Source: Terriglobus roseus DSM 18391
GTDB taxonomy: Bacteria; Acidobacteriota; Terriglobia; Terriglobales; Acidobacteriaceae
Assembly: GCF_000265425.1 (NCBI RefSeq)
Contig: NC_018014.1
Coordinates: 186,001-250,000, forward strand
Length of the DNA stretch: 64,000 bases
Direction of reading: 5' to 3'
Shown here: positions 6,895-13,424 of the stretch, in pieces
Layout: the number at the start of each line of letters is the position of its first letter
Numbering within the stretch: position 1 is the stretch's first letter
Made by a program: the position numbers and the translations under genes
The notes under the pieces: generated by a model
Database searches by the model: none
What the model was told of the DNA's origin: nothing
Seen by the model: the letters and a program-made list of their open reading frames with translations, nothing else

Positions 6895-6982
6895 AGCCGG
6901 ACTTTACCTGTGGTGAGGTCGGATCACAAGGGTGGTGCTGGAGTGTTTCGGTGTGCAGTTGTCCGCGTGGCACCGATGGATC

Positions 6983-7010
6983 AGAAGCGGGACGTGGTGC
7001 ACCCGCTTCT
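6983..7010. repeat. Hairpin with GCACCC core, diverged dispersed repeat
   Basis: Arms AGAAGCGGG (6983-6991) and CCCGCTTCT (7002-7010) pair perfectly around ACGTGGTGCA. The internal GACGTGGTGCACCC differs by one base from the GACGTGGGGCACCC at 5758-5771, so this is probably a diverged member of the same repeat family. It lies in the 247-bp space between the divergent M28 and rsbR genes, where it could also influence the rsbR leader. Confidence 0.5.
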
Positions 7011-7141
7011 TCTGCATCTCTGGACGGGACTTTCGTGCGGGAATGGAAGGTACAGGTGTGCCGTTGGGAACGGCGCCGTCGATTCTGCGGCGCTACAATA
7101 CGGACTGCAATTCCCAAGATATTTTCAGAGGCAGGGCCTAC

Positions 7142-8008
7142 GTGAGCGCATTTCAGCAGGTGATCCAGACGAATGAAACTGCCATCCTTTCCGGTTGGCT
7201 GGATGAGATGGCCAGCGCTACGCGGCGCGGCGACCTGATGAACAACACGGATCTGAAGCAGCAGGCGGGTGAGTTGCTGCGGTTATTTGGCGAGGCGTCG
7301 GCTAAGAGTCAGGATATTCAGTCTGAGGCGTTTGCTCCGATCCGGGCCTTCCTGCAGGACATTGCGAAGTCGCGCATGGAGCGTGGGTTTACGCCGGCTG
7401 AGACGGCGATGTTTGTGCTGTCGCTGAAGCAGCCCATCTTCCATGCCCTGCGGGATGCCTTGAAGGCAAACCCTGCGGAGTTGCTGAATGAGAACTGGGC
7501 TGTGGGCAATCTGCTGGATAAGCTGTCGATGCTGACGGTGGATACGGCGATTGGCTATCGCGAACAGACGATCGCGCGGCAGCAGGAAGAGATGCTGGAG
7601 CTGTCGACGCCGGTGGTGAAGCTTTGGGATGGCGTACTGGCACTGCCGCTGATCGGAACGCTGGACTCCGCACGGACGCAGGTGGTGATGGAGTCGCTGC
7701 TGTCAGCCATTGTGGAGACGAACAGCCAGGTTGCGATCATCGACATTACGGGTGTGCCGACGGTGGATACGCTGGTCGCGCAGCACCTGATCAAGACGAT
7801 TACGGCGGCGCGGCTGATGGGTGCGGACTGTTTCCTGAGCGGTATCCGTCCGGCGATTGCGCAGACGATCGTTCACCTGGGCATCGATCTGGCGGACATC
7901 CAGACGAAGGCGAAGCTCTCGGATGCCTTTGCCGTTGCGTTGCAGCGGGTTGGTAAAGCGGTGGTTTCGCTGAAGTCTGTCGCGAAGCCAGAGAAGAAGG
8001 AAGCTTAG
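7142..8008 (+). CDS. rsbR: RsbR-type stressosome scaffold (RsbRD N-domain plus STAS)
   Basis: This 288-residue protein has a helical RsbRD-like sensor domain (about residues 1-145, including the SGWLDEM start) and a C-terminal STAS domain (about 160-275). The STAS part contains DITGVPTVDTLVAQHLIKTI and LSGIRPAIAQTIVHLGI, closely matching Bacillus RsbR around its two phosphorylatable threonines. RsbR-like proteins form the stressosome shell with RsbS and control release of the RsbT kinase. The GTG start follows GGCAGGG; longer in-frame ATGs upstream fall in non-coding sequence. It is the first gene of a six-gene overlapping cluster running to 13424. Confidence 0.9.
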   Translation: MSAFQQVIQTNETAILSGWLDEMASATRRGDLMNNTDLKQQAGELLRLFGEASAKSQDIQSEAFAPIRAFLQDIAKSRMERGFTPAETAMFVLSLKQPIFHALRDALKANPAELLNENWAVGNLLDKLSMLTVDTAIGYREQTIARQQEEMLELSTPVVKLWDGVLALPLIGTLDSARTQVVMESLLSAIVETNSQVAIIDITGVPTVDTLVAQHLIKTITAARLMGADCFLSGIRPAIAQTIVHLGIDLADIQTKAKLSDAFAVALQRVGKAVVSLKSVAKPEKKEA

Positions 8009-8012
8009 GCCT

Positions 8013-8408
8013 ATGGACCGTATCCCGATCCTGAAGGTTGGCGAGTGTCTGCTGGTGACGATCCAGGTGGACATGCACGACGAGCTGGCGATGACGCTGC
8101 AGCAGGACCTGACGTCGCAGATTTCGAAGTATGCGTCGCGCGGTGTGCTGATCGATATCTCGTCGCTGGAGATCGTGGATTCGTTCATTGGGCGGATGCT
8201 GGCGAACATTGCGGCGATGTCACGCGTGCTGGATGCGCAGACGGTGCTGACGGGCATGCAGCCGGCAGTTGCGATCACGCTGGTGGAGCTTGGCATGTCG
8301 TTGCCGGGCATCAAAACCGCGCTGAATGTGGAGCGCGGGATGCAGTTGCTGGCTGAGTACATCGGCGAAAACCGCGAGCTGGAAGAGGCCGATGGCGTTG
8401 AAGTCTGA
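8013..8408 (+). CDS. rsbS: RsbS-type stressosome core STAS protein
   Basis: This single STAS domain protein has 131 residues, slightly longer than Bacillus RsbS owing to a short acidic tail. The GVLIDISSLEIVDSFIGRML segment is nearly the RsbS consensus and contains the serine (in DSFIGR) phosphorylated by RsbT. The protein would sit in the stressosome core with RsbR and sequester RsbT in unstressed cells. It begins 4 bp after rsbR and overlaps rsbT by 17 bp, indicating translational coupling. The assignment is strong because of motif and gene order. Confidence 0.92.
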   Translation: MDRIPILKVGECLLVTIQVDMHDELAMTLQQDLTSQISKYASRGVLIDISSLEIVDSFIGRMLANIAAMSRVLDAQTVLTGMQPAVAITLVELGMSLPGIKTALNVERGMQLLAEYIGENRELEEADGVEV

Positions 8409-8793
8409 GACGTTTCCGGTGCGGACGTCCGATGATGTGGTGCGTGTCCGGCAGATCGTGCGGGCGTGGGCCGGCGAGCTGAAGTTCAGCCTGGTGGATA
8501 TGACGAAGTTTGTCACGGCCACGAGTGAACTGGCGCGGAACACGCTGGAGCATGGCGGCGGCGGCAGCATGACGGCGCACATGGTGGAGAACGGCGCGAG
8601 GAAGGGCATCAAGCTGGTCTTTCAGGATGAAGGACCAGGCATTCCGAATATGGAACTGGCGTTGCGCGACGGCTACACGACGGGCGGCGGCATGGGTTTG
8701 GGCTTGAGCGGCAGCAAGCGGCTGGTGAACGAATTCGACATTCAGAGTGAGCCCGGCCACGGAACGACTGTGACGATCATTCGCTGGAAGTAA
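8392..8793 (+). CDS. rsbT: RsbT-type serine/threonine kinase
   Basis: This 133-residue GHKL-fold kinase has an N-box in FVTATSELARNTLEHG, a G1 box in FQDEGPGIPNME and a G2 box in TGGGMGLGLSGSKRL. RsbT kinases phosphorylate RsbS and RsbR, leave the stressosome, and then activate a downstream partner. In Bacillus that partner is the RsbU phosphatase; no RsbU-like N-domain is visible here, so the next genes probably supply the partner. The ATG at 8392, inside the rsbS 3' end, is preferred because the protein then begins with the normal N-terminal strand. It is part of the coupled cluster. Confidence 0.9.
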   Translation: MALKSETFPVRTSDDVVRVRQIVRAWAGELKFSLVDMTKFVTATSELARNTLEHGGGGSMTAHMVENGARKGIKLVFQDEGPGIPNMELALRDGYTTGGGMGLGLSGSKRLVNEFDIQSEPGHGTTVTIIRWK

Positions 8794-8804
8794 GAGAGAG
8801 ACGT

Positions 8805-9827
8805 TTGCCGCAGATACATAGCTCCACGATGATCACGGATCAAAGCTCTGTGGGTGAGGCACGCCGCGTGGCTGTGCAGCATGCGCAGGCACTGGGTTTT
8901 GACGAAGAGCGGCGCAGCAATATTGGCATTGCCGTTACGGAGATGGCGACGAACGTCCTGCTCCACGGGCGTGGTGGCGAGGTTTTGCTGTGTCCGTTTG
9001 GCGAGGACGGCGGCCCGGTATGGCTGGATGTGCTGGCGCTGGATGCAGGGCCGGGCATACGCGATATGGCTCGTGCGATGGAGGATGGCTTCTCGACCGC
9101 AGGGACTGCCGGGCAGGGTCTGGGTGCGGTGCAGCGGCTGGCGGATGAGAGTTCAGTCTTCTCTCCGGTGGGGAAGGGTACGGTGAGCTGGAGCCGGTTC
9201 CGGCTGGGTCGGCCGCCGGTTGTTTCGGAGTTGGGTGTGGTCAGCATCCCGGTAAAGGGCGAGACGAAGTGCGGGGATGGATACCTGCTGCGGCCGGAGG
9301 CGACGCGATCGCTGTACATGGTGGTGGACGGCCTGGGCCATGGTGTGGGTGCGAACGAGGCTGCGCTGGAGGCGATCGAAACCGTGCGCCAGTACTCCGG
9401 TGAGACAGCGACGGAGATGGTGCAGCGCTCGCACGATGCGTTGAAGAAGACGCGTGGTGCGGCGATGTCGGTTGCGATTGTGGATCATGACCGGAAGATC
9501 TGTACGTATGCAGGCGTGGGAAATGTGACGGCGATGCTGGTCTCAGGGACGAGCAGCCGCACGATGGTTTCTCAGAACGGTACGCTGGGTGCGGTGCTGC
9601 CGCGTGTTGTGCAGGAGTACACGTATCCCATTGAGCCGAATGCGTTGCTGCTGATGTTTTCGGACGGTCTGAATACGCGCGCAGAGCTGGGGAGTTACGC
9701 CGGTGTGCAGCATCGGCATCCCATGCTAATGGCTGGTTTGTTGTACCGGGATTTCACGCGCCGTCGTGACGATGCGACGGTGTTGGTGGCGCCAGTGGGC
9801 GCTGCCCTGGAGGGGACGCCCGCATGA
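8805..9827 (+). CDS. RsbW-like ATPase fused to SpoIIE/RsbX-type phosphatase
   Basis: The 340-residue protein has two parts. Residues about 1-125 are a GHKL anti-sigma-factor-type ATPase (GIAVTEMATNVLLHGRGGEV, then ALDAGPGIRD and TAGTAGQGLGAVQRL). Residues about 145-335 are a SpoIIE/PP2C-type phosphatase with VVDGLGHGVGANEAA, MSVAIVD and LLMFSDGLNTR plus a final DDATVLVAPV. The phosphatase half resembles RsbX, which resets phosphorylated RsbR/RsbS. Kinase and phosphatase activities in one chain are known in other partner-switching proteins. A TTG start at 8805 follows GAGAGAGAC; ATG at 8829 is an alternative. It overlaps the next gene by four bases. Confidence 0.85.
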   Translation: MPQIHSSTMITDQSSVGEARRVAVQHAQALGFDEERRSNIGIAVTEMATNVLLHGRGGEVLLCPFGEDGGPVWLDVLALDAGPGIRDMARAMEDGFSTAGTAGQGLGAVQRLADESSVFSPVGKGTVSWSRFRLGRPPVVSELGVVSIPVKGETKCGDGYLLRPEATRSLYMVVDGLGHGVGANEAALEAIETVRQYSGETATEMVQRSHDALKKTRGAAMSVAIVDHDRKICTYAGVGNVTAMLVSGTSSRTMVSQNGTLGAVLPRVVQEYTYPIEPNALLLMFSDGLNTRAELGSYAGVQHRHPMLMAGLLYRDFTRRRDDATVLVAPVGAALEGTPA

Positions 9828-11962
9828 CGCAGCAACTGCATCGGTTGATGTTGGCGAGTGAGCGTGACGTTGTGAGCGCACGGCAGCGTGGGCGTTCGAT
9901 CGCGGAGGCGCTGGGCTTCGATCACCATGACCAGATCCGCATTGCGACGGCTGTCAGCGAGATTGCGCGGAATGCGTTTCGTTATGCGAAGGGCGGCGCC
10001 GTGGAGTTTGCGGTGGACCCTGATGCTGCGATGTTTCGCGTGGGTGTGACGGACACGGGCGGTGGTATTCCTCACCTGGACCAGGTGCTGGGCGGTGGTT
10101 ATAAGTCGAGCACCGGCATGGGGATGGGGCTGCTGGGTACGAAGCGGCTGATGGACGAGTTCAACGTTGCGACGACGCCTGCGGGAACGTCGGTGCAGTT
10201 TGGGAAGTCGCTGCCGGCGCATCGTCGCGGTATGGATGGCTCCGATCTGCAGAAGTTGCAGGGCGTGCTGGCTCGCCAGCATCCGGCGACAGCGGTGGAA
10301 GAGCTGCAGACGCAGAACCGCGAGTTGATGAAGACTCTGAATGAGCTTCGCGAACGCAAGGAAGAGTTGTTGCAGTTGAACTCAGAGCTACAGGACACGA
10401 ACCGCGGTGTTGTGGCGCTGTATGCGGAGCTGGATGAGCGTGCGGATTATCTGCGACGCGCTTCGGAGTTGAAGACAAGCTTTCTGTCGAATATGTCGCA
10501 CGAGTTCCGGACGCCGCTGAACTCGATTGTGGCGCTGACGCGCATGTTGCTGGACCGCATGGACGGCGAGCTGAATGGCGACCAGGAGCAGCAGGTGCGG
10601 TTCATCCAGCGCTCGGCACGTGAGCTGAGTGAGATGGTGGATGACCTGCTGGACCTGGCGAAGGTAGAGGCCGGGCGGCTTGAGGTGAAGGCTAAGAGCT
10701 TCCGCGTGGATGAGCTGTTTGGCGCGCTGCGCGGCATGCTGCGGCCACTGCTTGCGGACAGTTCGCTGAACCTGGTGTTTCAGGAGCCGGAAGAGTTGCC
10801 GGTGCTGTTCACGGACGAGCAGAAGGTTTCGCAGATCCTGCGGAACTTTATCTCGAACGCGATCAAGTTCACGCCGCGGGGTGAGGTTCGGGTTTTGGCT
10901 CGGGCTTGTGCGAATGGTGAGATTGAGTTCGATGTGGCGGATACGGGCATCGGGATCTCGCCGACGGACATGAACATCATCTTCGAGGAGTTCGGTCAGA
11001 TCGAGAGCAGTCTGCAGAAGCGGGTGAAGGGCACGGGGCTGGGGCTGCCGTTGTCGCGCAAGCTGGCGGAGCTGCTGGGCGGTTCGGTTCGGGTGACGAG
11101 TTCCGTGGGCGAGGGGTCCGTCTTTACGCTGACGCTGCCGGGCGTTTATGGCGGACTGGCGCCGGATCCGGAGATTGAGCTGCCGGATTTTGAGCCGGGT
11201 AAGAAGCTGATTTTGATTGTTGAGGACAACGCCGAGACTTCGTTTATCTATGCGCGTTATTTGGCGAATGCTGGTTACCAGGCCTATGCTGCGCCGTCGG
11301 TGGAGTATGCGAAGAACATCCTGGCGAAGGTGCAGCCGTCTGCCGTGATTCTGGATGTGATGTTGCGGGCGGAGACGACGTGGGATTTTCTGCGGGAGTT
11401 GAAGTCGGGGCCGCAGCCGTTGCCGGTGCTGGTGATCAGCATTGTGGATGACGAGCGGCGGATCTTCGGCGCGGGTGCGGATGCTTACCTGAGCAAGCCG
11501 TTTGCGCCGGATGAGATGATCGCCGTGATTTCGCGGCTGACGTCGCCGGCGGGGCGCGTGCCGATCCTGATGATCGATGACAACGAAGTCTCACGGTACG
11601 TGCTGCGCGGGCAGATTGCGGATACGGAGTATGAGGTGCATGAGGCTCGGGACGGCCGTGAGGGGATCCGCATGGCCGCGACGGTGCAGCCGGCGATGAT
11701 CTTCCTGGACTTCTACATGCCGGGGTTGAACGGCATGGAGGTGCTGAAGGATCTGCGCAGCAATGATGCGTTGAAGGACATCCCGGTGGTGCTGCATTCG
11801 ACGAAGATGCTGGAGCCGGCGGAGCAGGAGTTCTTTCGGGCGAATGGTGTGACCGTCTTTCCGAAGCAGATGTTGACGACGCCGGATGCAGCGGAGCGTG
11901 TGACCGAGCTGATCCAGACGGTGACCGCGCACTATCCCCGGCCGGGCGGCGTGCATGTCTAG
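9824..11962 (+). CDS. Hybrid histidine kinase with RsbT-like N-domain and two receivers
   Basis: This 712-residue protein has four blocks. Residues about 1-135 form an RsbT-like GHKL ATPase (IATAVSEIARNAFRYAKGG, TDTGGGIPHLDQ, TGMGMGLLGTKRLMDEF). A coiled coil follows at about 150-215. A classical kinase core spans about 215-445 with FLSNMSHEFRTPLNS (His226) and its own ATPase domain. Two receiver domains have Asp511 (VILDVML) and Asp629 (FLDFYMPG). Two different nucleotide-binding domains in one kinase are unusual. Gene order suggests it takes input from the stressosome through the N-domain and passes phosphate through receivers. It overlaps both neighbours, by 4 and 8 bases. Confidence 0.88.
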   Translation: MTQQLHRLMLASERDVVSARQRGRSIAEALGFDHHDQIRIATAVSEIARNAFRYAKGGAVEFAVDPDAAMFRVGVTDTGGGIPHLDQVLGGGYKSSTGMGMGLLGTKRLMDEFNVATTPAGTSVQFGKSLPAHRRGMDGSDLQKLQGVLARQHPATAVEELQTQNRELMKTLNELRERKEELLQLNSELQDTNRGVVALYAELDERADYLRRASELKTSFLSNMSHEFRTPLNSIVALTRMLLDRMDGELNGDQEQQVRFIQRSARELSEMVDDLLDLAKVEAGRLEVKAKSFRVDELFGALRGMLRPLLADSSLNLVFQEPEELPVLFTDEQKVSQILRNFISNAIKFTPRGEVRVLARACANGEIEFDVADTGIGISPTDMNIIFEEFGQIESSLQKRVKGTGLGLPLSRKLAELLGGSVRVTSSVGEGSVFTLTLPGVYGGLAPDPEIELPDFEPGKKLILIVEDNAETSFIYARYLANAGYQAYAAPSVEYAKNILAKVQPSAVILDVMLRAETTWDFLRELKSGPQPLPVLVISIVDDERRIFGAGADAYLSKPFAPDEMIAVISRLTSPAGRVPILMIDDNEVSRYVLRGQIADTEYEVHEARDGREGIRMAATVQPAMIFLDFYMPGLNGMEVLKDLRSNDALKDIPVVLHSTKMLEPAEQEFFRANGVTVFPKQMLTTPDAAERVTELIQTVTAHYPRPGGVHV

Positions 11963-13424
11963 CGATCGCGGTTCCGGCCGGATTCTGCTGATCGATGATC
12001 AGGAGGCGACGCGGTATGTGTTTCGGCGGATTCTGACTCGTGCGGGTTACACCGTGGAGGAGGCGGAGACGGGTCGCGAGGGTATGGCGAAGGCGATGAT
12101 GCTGCCGGACCTGGTTATCTGCGATGTGAATCTGCCGGACATGCTGGGGTACGACGTCAGCCGCAGATTGAAGTCGAATCCGCTGACGCTGAACATCCCG
12201 GTGCTGCAGATCTCTGCGGCGTTTGTGAGTGATGAGAGCCGTGTGCAGGCGCTGGATGGTGGCGCGGACAGTTACCTGACGCAGCCCGTAGAGGCGACGG
12301 TCCTGGTGGCGCAGGTGAATGCGCTGCTGCGGATGCGTCGGGCGGAGAGCCTGTCGTCGCTTTCGGCGCTGCAGTGGAAGACGACGTTCGACGCGCTGAG
12401 CGATGGCGTGGCGCTGGCAAATGCGGATGGCGTGCTGGTGCGGGTGAACAGTACGTTTCTTTCGCTGATGGAGATGGTGTCTTCCGATGCGGAAGGGACT
12501 CTGCTGGCGAAGATCTTCGAGGAGAAATTTACGCACCCGTTTGCGGAATTTTTGCAGAAGGGTGCGCTGGGTGCACCGACGGAGATCGTGTATCGCGACC
12601 GTTGGTTGCGTGTGCGCTATGACCGCATCCGTACCGACGCGAATATTGAGAGCGGTCTGATCCTGCTGGTTACCGACATCACGGACCAGAAGAAGTTGCA
12701 GGAGACGCTGAAGCTGAGCGAGCGGCTGGCGGCTACGGGGCGGCTGGCGCATGTGATCGCGCACGAGATCAACAATCCTCTGGAGGCGATGCAGAACCTC
12801 CTGTACCTGGCGCAGATGGAGTCGACACCGCCTGAGGATGTGCAGGACTATGTGCACCAGGCTTCCTCGGAGTTGACGCGTATCAGCCAGATCACCAAGC
12901 AGGTGCTGGCGTATCACCGCGGATCGTCGCAGCCTGTGATGGCGCGTTCGGACGAGATTTTGCAGAGCGTTCTGGCGATCTTCCGCTCGATGTTCCTGAA
13001 CGGGCGTGTGGATCTGGATGCGAAGACGGGATGCGCGGTTTCGCTGATGGTGCATCCGGGCGAGATCCGGCAGGTGCTGAGCAATATCATTTCGAATGCG
13101 CTGGATGCCCTGGGCGGGACACGCGGCAGCCGGCTGTGCGCTCGCTGCATTCAATCGACGGAAGTGAGTACGGGGCGCCGCGGTGTGCGCTTTCTGTTCA
13201 GCGACAACGGTCCCGGGATTCCGGAAGAGATTCTGCCGCGGATCTTCGAGGCGTTCTATACGACGAAGGAGTCGAAGGGATCTGGTGTGGGGCTGTGGCT
13301 TAGCGCTGAGGTGATCGGGAAGCATCGTGGCAGCGTTCGTGTGCGCACACGGACCGCCGGCAAGTTCCATGGCACCATCTTCGATGTCTTCCTGCCGCTG
13401 CCTATGGACGACATCCAGCCGTAA
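11955..13424 (+). CDS. REC-PAS-histidine kinase
   Basis: This 489-residue protein has a receiver domain first (LLIDDQEATR, phospho-acceptor Asp57 in ICDVNLPD; the usual KP motif is replaced by TQP), then a PAS-like domain (about 135-245, ending LLVTDITDQKK), then a kinase core with RLAHVIAHEINNPLEAMQ (His270) and a GHKL ATPase (DNGPGIPEEILPRIFEAFYT, GSGVGLWLS). The lysine-to-glutamine change in the receiver could alter how phosphorylation switches the domain. It is the last signalling gene of the stressosome-like cluster, and neither it nor its neighbours has a DNA-binding domain, so the final output lies elsewhere. Confidence 0.88.
   Translation: MSSDRGSGRILLIDDQEATRYVFRRILTRAGYTVEEAETGREGMAKAMMLPDLVICDVNLPDMLGYDVSRRLKSNPLTLNIPVLQISAAFVSDESRVQALDGGADSYLTQPVEATVLVAQVNALLRMRRAESLSSLSALQWKTTFDALSDGVALANADGVLVRVNSTFLSLMEMVSSDAEGTLLAKIFEEKFTHPFAEFLQKGALGAPTEIVYRDRWLRVRYDRIRTDANIESGLILLVTDITDQKKLQETLKLSERLAATGRLAHVIAHEINNPLEAMQNLLYLAQMESTPPEDVQDYVHQASSELTRISQITKQVLAYHRGSSQPVMARSDEILQSVLAIFRSMFLNGRVDLDAKTGCAVSLMVHPGEIRQVLSNIISNALDALGGTRGSRLCARCIQSTEVSTGRRGVRFLFSDNGPGIPEEILPRIFEAFYTTKESKGSGVGLWLSAEVIGKHRGSVRVRTRTAGKFHGTIFDVFLPLPMDDIQP

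Follow-up and report, generated by a model that had tools for sequence, protein, structure and literature searches.

The 64,000-nucleotide stretch of Terriglobus roseus DSM 18391 DNA that we analysed (NC_018014.1, positions 186,001 to 250,000; called the window below, and numbered from its first letter) contains, at positions 7142-13424 of the + strand, six collinear and tightly packed genes in the order rsbR-rsbS-rsbT-X-HK-K2, as assigned from open reading frames and Pfam domains. X encodes a phosphatase, and HK and K2 encode two kinases. We propose, with a probability of about one half, that this operon specifies a stressosome of a second output type, in which the histidine kinase HK would carry an RsbT-like domain joined in cis to the very coiled coil that it controls. 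The proposal builds on observations of the operon's architecture and conservation, of the equivalent position held by RsbU_N proteins in sister clusters, of a helix that is matched once per genome and kept at a fixed spacing, and of variable outputs. The question at issue is by what route a stressosome that lacks SigB and RsbU acts on its outputs, and the HK linker, whose end is the helix TNRGVVALYAEL, as a rule placed 34 residues ahead of the catalytic histidine, offers a defined candidate receiver. The features of the operon, all on the + strand except where no strand is given, are as follows.

7142-8008, +: rsbR, RsbRD_N sensor plus STAS domain, GTG start
7607-7609, +: linker Thr codon of rsbR (coordinates calculated from alignment numbering)
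7769-7771, +: STAS-switch Thr codon of rsbR (coordinates calculated likewise)
8013-8408, +: rsbS, STAS scaffold (PF01740, 2.5e-8), 4-base gap after rsbR
8181-8183, +: RsbS Ser57, presumed site of phosphorylation by RsbT
8392-8793, +: rsbT, stand-alone switch kinase, ATG at 8392, 17-base overlap with rsbS
8805-9827, +: X, HATPase_c_2 domain (Xn, residues 13-126) plus SpoIIE/RsbX-type phosphatase (Xp)
9824-11962, +: HK, hybrid histidine kinase (HATPase_c_2, long helix, HisKA, HATPase_c, REC, REC), overlapping X by 4 bases
9824-10213, +: HKn, the RsbT-like N-domain of HK, residues 1-130 (PF13581, 1.2e-15)
10292-10552, +: predicted single continuous helix, HK residues 157-243, running from the N-domain into HisKA (AlphaFold2)
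10394-10432, +: core of the putative receiver helix, DTNRGVVALYAEL, HK residues 191-203
10496-10516, +: H-box SHEFRTP with catalytic His226 (PF00512, 1.8e-18)
within 11345-11365 and within 11699-11719, +: REC aspartates of HK
11955-13424, +: K2, REC-PAS-HisKA-HATPase_c, 8-base overlap with HK, presumed partner of HK
from 13434: cobalamin adenosyltransferase gene, next after K2

The first three genes constitute an RsbRST stressosome module, with RsbR (sensor and STAS), RsbS and RsbT adjacent to each other and with conserved Ser/Thr and ATP-site residues. RsbR matched PF14361 (4.8e-26) and PF01740 (1.2e-14) when the longer frame 6932-8005 was searched, and its 2 Thr residues, presumed to have the roles of the switch and linker sites in Bacillus, are conserved at 99% and 96% (119 sequences). 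In RsbS the D56-S57-F58 residues are conserved at 100, 99 and 99% (116 sequences), Ser57 presumably having the role known from Bacillus; in RsbT the N-box E and N and the DxGxG motif are present in 100% of 127 sequences, and the window protein scored 85-91 bits against 2 Firmicute RsbT sequences. X contains PF13581 (5.4e-12) and PF07228 (9.5e-14). HK has the parts of a hybrid histidine kinase, namely HisKA with an H-box, HATPase_c and REC domains with Asp, and in its N-domain E46 and N50 are conserved at 99% and D77 at 100% (136 sequences). A preliminary description of this region, made from the sequence alone, had given the same six-gene layout with overlaps and short gaps, and we could confirm it: the overlaps are 17, 4 and 8 bases and the gaps 4 and 11, the latter for a TTG start of X and becoming 35 if X starts at the alternative ATG 8829. 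A scan of the operon for promoters and terminators gave no signal above shuffles.

That description had also stated that the cluster lacks a sigma factor, an RsbV-type antagonist and a DNA-binding output, and indeed Pfam found none among the genes of the unit; by Pfam and gene order, the SigB-pathway parts RsbU, RsbV, RsbW and SigB are all absent from it. In the whole T. roseus genome no SigB-type sigma factor scored above the cut-off. The best sigma match there is a frame of 590 amino acids, which is of housekeeping length, and the second best, located among flagellar genes, looks like FliA. An RsbW-like plus RsbV-like pair is found elsewhere in the genome, at 3335661-3336444 (L156:5278-6469 in our numbering of loci).

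RsbT is reported to switch RsbU on through contacts with the N-domain and linker of RsbU, which bring order to a coiled coil (PMC12143880), and kinases bearing RsbU_N have been described (PMC9237108, PMC12143880). We compared the outputs of 72 Acidobacteriota loci, 65 of which had a detectable X and were used, and 7 of which had none and were left out. Where X, as in the window, joins ATPase and phosphatase in one protein (fused X), 43 of 44 loci had the N-domain, the helix or both in the gene that follows; this sample is biased, since most fused-X loci were found with an N-domain query, and the exception is L151. With a single-domain (19 loci) or T-fused (2 loci) X, neither element was present in any of the 21 loci (Fisher p 3.6e-16 for X type against receiver, although the loci are related to one another). 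Instead, the gene after a single-domain X contained RsbU_N in 16 of the 16 loci tested (10 + 6, with L152 below the Pfam cut-off). Outside this count stood the 2 T-fused loci and 3 of the 19 single-domain-X loci, of which L040 and L149 are at contig ends, while in L131 the contig breaks off after a lone ATPase. Conversely, Pfam found no RsbU_N in the window HK or K2, in residues 1-445 of 32 N-domain kinases, in 10 proteins from nine fused-X loci, or in 4 helix-only kinases. Thus the same operon position holds one receiver or the other and, because RsbU_N is a known RsbT receiver, HK is very probably the output of its stressosome. The effector domain at this position is exchanged among clusters, GGDEF, GGDEF-EAL and a sigma-54 activator all having been observed. 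The last of these is found in the single-domain-X cluster L132, where the downstream protein (L132:4068-5906) is RsbU_N-GAF-sigma-54 activator-HTH_8; that stressosome may drive a DNA-binding sigma-54 activator directly.

The helix itself is highly specific. We searched with a profile (A2: 44 residues, 18 rows, matches taken at E 0.001 or better), scoring in some genomes the best 18 or 37 candidates, and obtained matches in 15 of 396 Acidobacteriota, 19 of 194 Cyanobacteria (the class of a Calothrix) and 18 of 398 Proteobacteria (the phylum of Janthinobacterium). This amounts to 52 of 988 genomes, with one match per genome, and in 51 of the 52 (14 Acidobacteriota, 19 Cyanobacteria, 18 Proteobacteria) the match adjoins a fused X. 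In 24 genomes picked for their loci the helix likewise occurred exactly once in each; of 6 plasmid records 4 had it, the 2 without it being Paraburkholderia plasmids. By comparison, five helix genomes gave 44, 73, 74, at least 146 and at least 149 HisKA matches, and we have rejected a role as a general signalling helix, given its single match per genome despite the many kinases. In 140 of the 146 distinct proteins compared, 10 of these lacking the N-domain, the helix Thr precedes the catalytic His by 34 residues; among the remaining 6, one had a spacing of 41 and five had no H-box of the pattern searched. An AlphaFold2 model of HK residues 1-445 (32-row alignment A4) predicted one helix, residues 157-243, passing through the motif into the histidine helix, with a mean pLDDT (predicted local distance difference test) of 84.5 and a pTM (predicted template modelling score) of 0.48, at which domain placement is not trustworthy. 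Histidine-kinase structures were among the best 50 in a fold search.

For the identity of the ATPase domains we relied on profile scores and trees, with rows kept below 62% identity within each class (38 of 159 RsbT, 54 of 130 Xn and 32 of 125 HKn sequences). The HKn profile gave 123 bits on 2 Firmicute RsbT sequences and 34 or less on RsbW/SpoIIAB; the corresponding scores for the X-domain profile were 108-113 bits and 36 or less. All 32 representative N-domains and all 54 X-domains were nearer to Firmicute RsbT than to RsbW/SpoIIAB. By these scores we have rejected both an ordinary anti-sigma ATPase in HK and an RsbW domain in X, so that the preliminary description was right to call the HK N-domain RsbT-like and wrong to call the X ATPase RsbW-like. 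In a 130-row tree, which has few columns and Shimodaira-Hasegawa approximate likelihood-ratio support only, the kinase N-domains form one clade (99) that groups with RsbT (92) and away from RsbW/SpoIIAB (98). A 59-row tree, whose bootstrap has not settled, gave 100/96 for the N-domain clade and 98/88 for the RsbT plus N-domain side, which there includes Xn of L151. The clustering with anti-sigma ATPases that would have spoken against RsbT kinship thus did not appear, although an approximately unbiased (AU) test (p 0.456) allows a branch that has HKn and RsbW together on one side, which leaves the deep root open; in our reading, the long outgroup branch can move. Since RsbT, Xn and HKn are all RsbT-like, the module uses the RsbT fold three times. 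The other half of X, Xp, matched Listeria RsbX at 53 bits, and the RsbU gene of the same Listeria locus gave no match. Sequence searches of the PDB reached mainly SpoIIAB, RsbW and histidine kinases.

The arrangement is widely conserved. An N-domain plus linker query matched in 45 of 150 genomes of the same order, and in 35 of them, T. roseus included, the match extended into the linker, the other 10 being RsbT-like only. All 35 had an RsbT match about 1.4-1.5 kilobases (kb) upstream of the fused N-domain, so the arrangement is not a matter of chance. Each of the 34 loci fetched from this order had R-S-T-X (for rsbR, rsbS, rsbT and X) and then the N-domain gene, followed in 30 by a full-length K2; K2 is partial in L024 and missing from L025, L032 and L033. 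Over a wider set of 151 loci, whose output proteins all differ from one another in their final 200 residues, the six-gene order that the preliminary description had proposed to look for in related genomes was largely recovered, and an absence of the two kinase genes beside rsbRST in every relative, which would have spoken against that description, did not appear. R-S-T-X-output occurred in 117 (116, plus one with a second R), only X-output or T-X-output in 30 (all but L125 being 3.1-kb fetches), S-T-X-output in 2 (L129, L162) and the output alone in 2 (L086, at a contig end, and L163); the outputs counted as HK in this set include two GGDEF proteins, and L200 fell below the score limit. Of the 118 distinct loci with 1.5 kb or more downstream, at least 101 had K2 after the output, another 33 loci being too short; this is a lower bound, as a start filter missed K2 in L083 and L089 and L128, at 58 bits, was just below the 60-bit limit. 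The best 80 loci of a scan of named genomes belonged to Acidobacteriota, Cyanobacteriota, Pseudomonadota, Rokubacteria, Nitrospirota and one metagenome-assembled genome of Planctomycetota, and plasmids of Deinococcus (including D. radiodurans MP1), Sphingomonas, Caballeronia and Paraburkholderia also carry the arrangement. We rejected a conserved gene following K2: the 101 loci yielded 34 genes that lie on the same strand no more than 250 bases from K2, and no family among them exceeded 3 members, those of the largest all coming from Janthinobacterium. Two irregular forms were also seen. In L105, L107, L113 and L115 (Microcoleus/Oscillatoriales-type), HK has no REC match, no K2 was found, and rsbR, rsbS and rsbT are separated by gaps of up to some hundred bases; in L083:7968-10094 and L114:8001-9831, two reading frames together make up HK.

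The two receiver elements do not always occur together. In Proteobacteria 9 of 18 helix proteins have no N-domain, these being eight kinases and one PAS-GGDEF-EAL protein (L200, a weak match), and those of the kinases that we examined have just a short helix before HisKA. L146, L150 and the haloarchaeal plasmid kinase of L159 also have the helix without the N-domain; the last belongs to a Halobaculum halophilum plasmid on which R-S-T-fused X, a helix-bearing PAS kinase and a response regulator lie together (L159:3810-8208). L130, L124 and L162 are kinases with the N-domain and without the helix, and in L032 and L033 the N-domain, which is nested within the kinase N-domain clade, stands on GGDEF, again with no helix. 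The preliminary description had inferred that stress controls the kinase because released RsbT or the RsbT-like N-domain may dock on the RsbR/RsbS shell. The domain's identity, the widely conserved two-kinase arrangement and RsbU_N at the equivalent position speak for the kinase as output, but the N-domain is not the constant part: relatives without it keep the coiled-coil helix beside the histidine, an element that the description did not mention.

We envisage that the system could operate as follows. RsbR and RsbS would form a shell, with RsbT as the switch kinase, and X would act as the resetting phosphatase and reach the shell by way of the RsbT-like domain that it carries. As long as the cell is unstressed, the N-domain of HK would sit on the RsbR/RsbS shell as RsbT does; under stress it would be freed and would grip the TNRGVVALYAEL helix as RsbT grips the RsbU linker, thereby setting the register of the kinase dimer. 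Phosphate may then pass through the REC domains of HK to that of K2, whose kinase part would signal to a regulator encoded elsewhere. The assignment of K2 as phosphorelay partner is suggested by its absence from both GGDEF variants (L032, L033). In relatives without the fused domain, free RsbT or the ATPase of X could act on the same helix in trans. RsbT acting in cis is the simplest reading, because an RsbT-like domain precedes a specific coiled coil leading into the kinase, and in relatives this coiled coil is found by itself. More tentatively, we suggest that several phyla and at least one archaeal plasmid share an RsbU-independent second stressosome receiver, namely a short helix (TNxGVVALYAEL) to which ATPases of the RsbT family would hold on, whether in trans or fused in cis, and which could stand before kinases and cyclic-di-GMP enzymes; with the RsbT fold used three times, three enzymes would compete for the same shell sites.

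Several observations weigh against this proposal. Profile A2 includes rows from L146, L150 and L159, so that genomes G263 and G384 and the haloarchaeal plasmid match by construction, and in some genomes the helix counts rest on the 18 or 37 best first-look candidates already mentioned; the bias in the 43 of 44 loci and the deep root left by the AU test belong here as well. AlphaFold2 places the N-domain relative to the helix without firmness. Five distinct outputs (L032, L033, L124, L130 and L162, counted over rows distinct by the last 120 residues of X) have the N-domain and no helix and, because others have only the helix, neither element is universal. L151 combines a fused X with a PAS kinase that has neither. 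Finally, 2 genomes have no match to the window's RsbS: G440, which has a helix kinase (L163), and G472, which has X and an HK whose frame looks interrupted. The G440 kinase gene is followed by a kinase gene of some K2 likeness (L163:8273-10570) and is the sole exception to adjacency with fused X among the 52 genomes.

It is also conceivable, though unlikely, that the kinase is the stressosome's output and that RsbT phosphorylates it. In that case the N-domain would be no more than a tether, or else a working serine kinase, and the helix would be of the ordinary signalling kind. RsbT-dependent phosphorylation has been proposed for outputs without RsbU_N by Heinz et al. (PMC9237108), in whose survey most of the downstream proteins are without RsbU_N, their coupling is left open, and interaction tests of RsbT with VvD1 were not positive. 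In keeping with such a kinase activity, the N-box E/N and DxGxG residues of the ATP site are kept in RsbT (100%), Xn (98-100%) and HKn (98-100%). However, a helix found once per genome, and beside fused X in all but one of them, shows a specificity well beyond that of an ordinary signalling helix.

That this is an ordinary Gram-negative stressosome-two-component cluster, with the N-domain and helix as lineage features of no special role, seems to us improbable. Clusters of RSTX followed by HisKA and REC proteins have certainly been described (PMC9237108, PMC10014275), and the claim of the preliminary description that a stressosome is here wired to kinases instead of a sigma factor was therefore borne out but is of a kind already in print. 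Yet in the clusters of the Gram-negative survey X is described as single-domain, and the receiver as RsbU_N or none that is known, whereas fused X and the different receiver go together across phyla and on one archaeal plasmid. There is a small chance that HK and K2 instead feed into the stressosome, sensing through PAS and REC and phosphorylating RsbS/RsbR through the N-domain as an extra input, since, for all that HKn retains its ATP-site residues and K2 carries a PAS domain, sister clusters have RsbU_N proteins at the same position and effector domains are swapped in both cluster types.

Compared with known systems, the proposed cis-acting stressosome shares RsbR, RsbS and RsbT with conserved switch Ser/Thr, and an RsbX-type phosphatase, with the rsbRSTUVW-sigB-rsbX operons of Bacillus and Listeria; it differs from them in having no RsbU, RsbV, RsbW or SigB, in the RsbT-like domain on X, and in a kinase pair as output. 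The Vibrio-type RSTX clusters (VvD1-VvD2; PMC9237108, PMC10014275) also lead from RSTX to a two-component output with no sigma factor, but there X is single-domain, RsbR is globin-coupled and, by description only and in the sections cited, VvD1 has no RsbT-like N-domain. RsbU_N kinases and the MtG diguanylate cyclase (PMC12143880) resemble HK in that a coiled coil joins the stressosome output to an effector; their receiver is RsbU_N, and here it would be the TNRGVVALYAEL helix, the RsbT-like domain or both, with no RsbU_N. We came across no account of either the N-domain or the helix in searches of one open-access library, and older surveys outside it may already have drawn this architecture. 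As far as we have read, the following are new: that fused-X clusters carry a receiver other than RsbU_N; that the helix occurs once per genome in 52 of 988 genomes, with fused X beside it in 51; that the helix is kept in proteins with no N-domain, and the N-domain in a diguanylate cyclase; and that in Acidobacteriota fused X goes with these receivers (43/44) and single-domain X with RsbU_N (16/16 tested). A mutable helix of 13 residues at a fixed spacing, with natural variants that have or lack the RsbT-like domain, makes the question directly testable. If the proposal is true, a single ATPase fold has three jobs within one complex, those of kinase, of phosphatase adaptor and of effector input, and this in Deinococcus and cyanobacteria besides soil Acidobacteriota.

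Some minor observations were made along the way. In the T. roseus genome, pairs of equal matches lie 460,518-460,519 bases apart between about 2.36-2.68 Mb and 2.82-3.14 Mb, one pair having unequal frames; this is either a large tandem duplication or an assembly artefact, and contamination is listed for this genome at 9.37%. Extra RsbT-like ATPases, probably stand-alone, were found beside R-S-T-X clusters at L131:8956-9417 and L132:3085-4080. Also, RsbT and an RsbX-type phosphatase are joined in one frame of 370 amino acids at L135:671-1783 and at L138:1566-2678.

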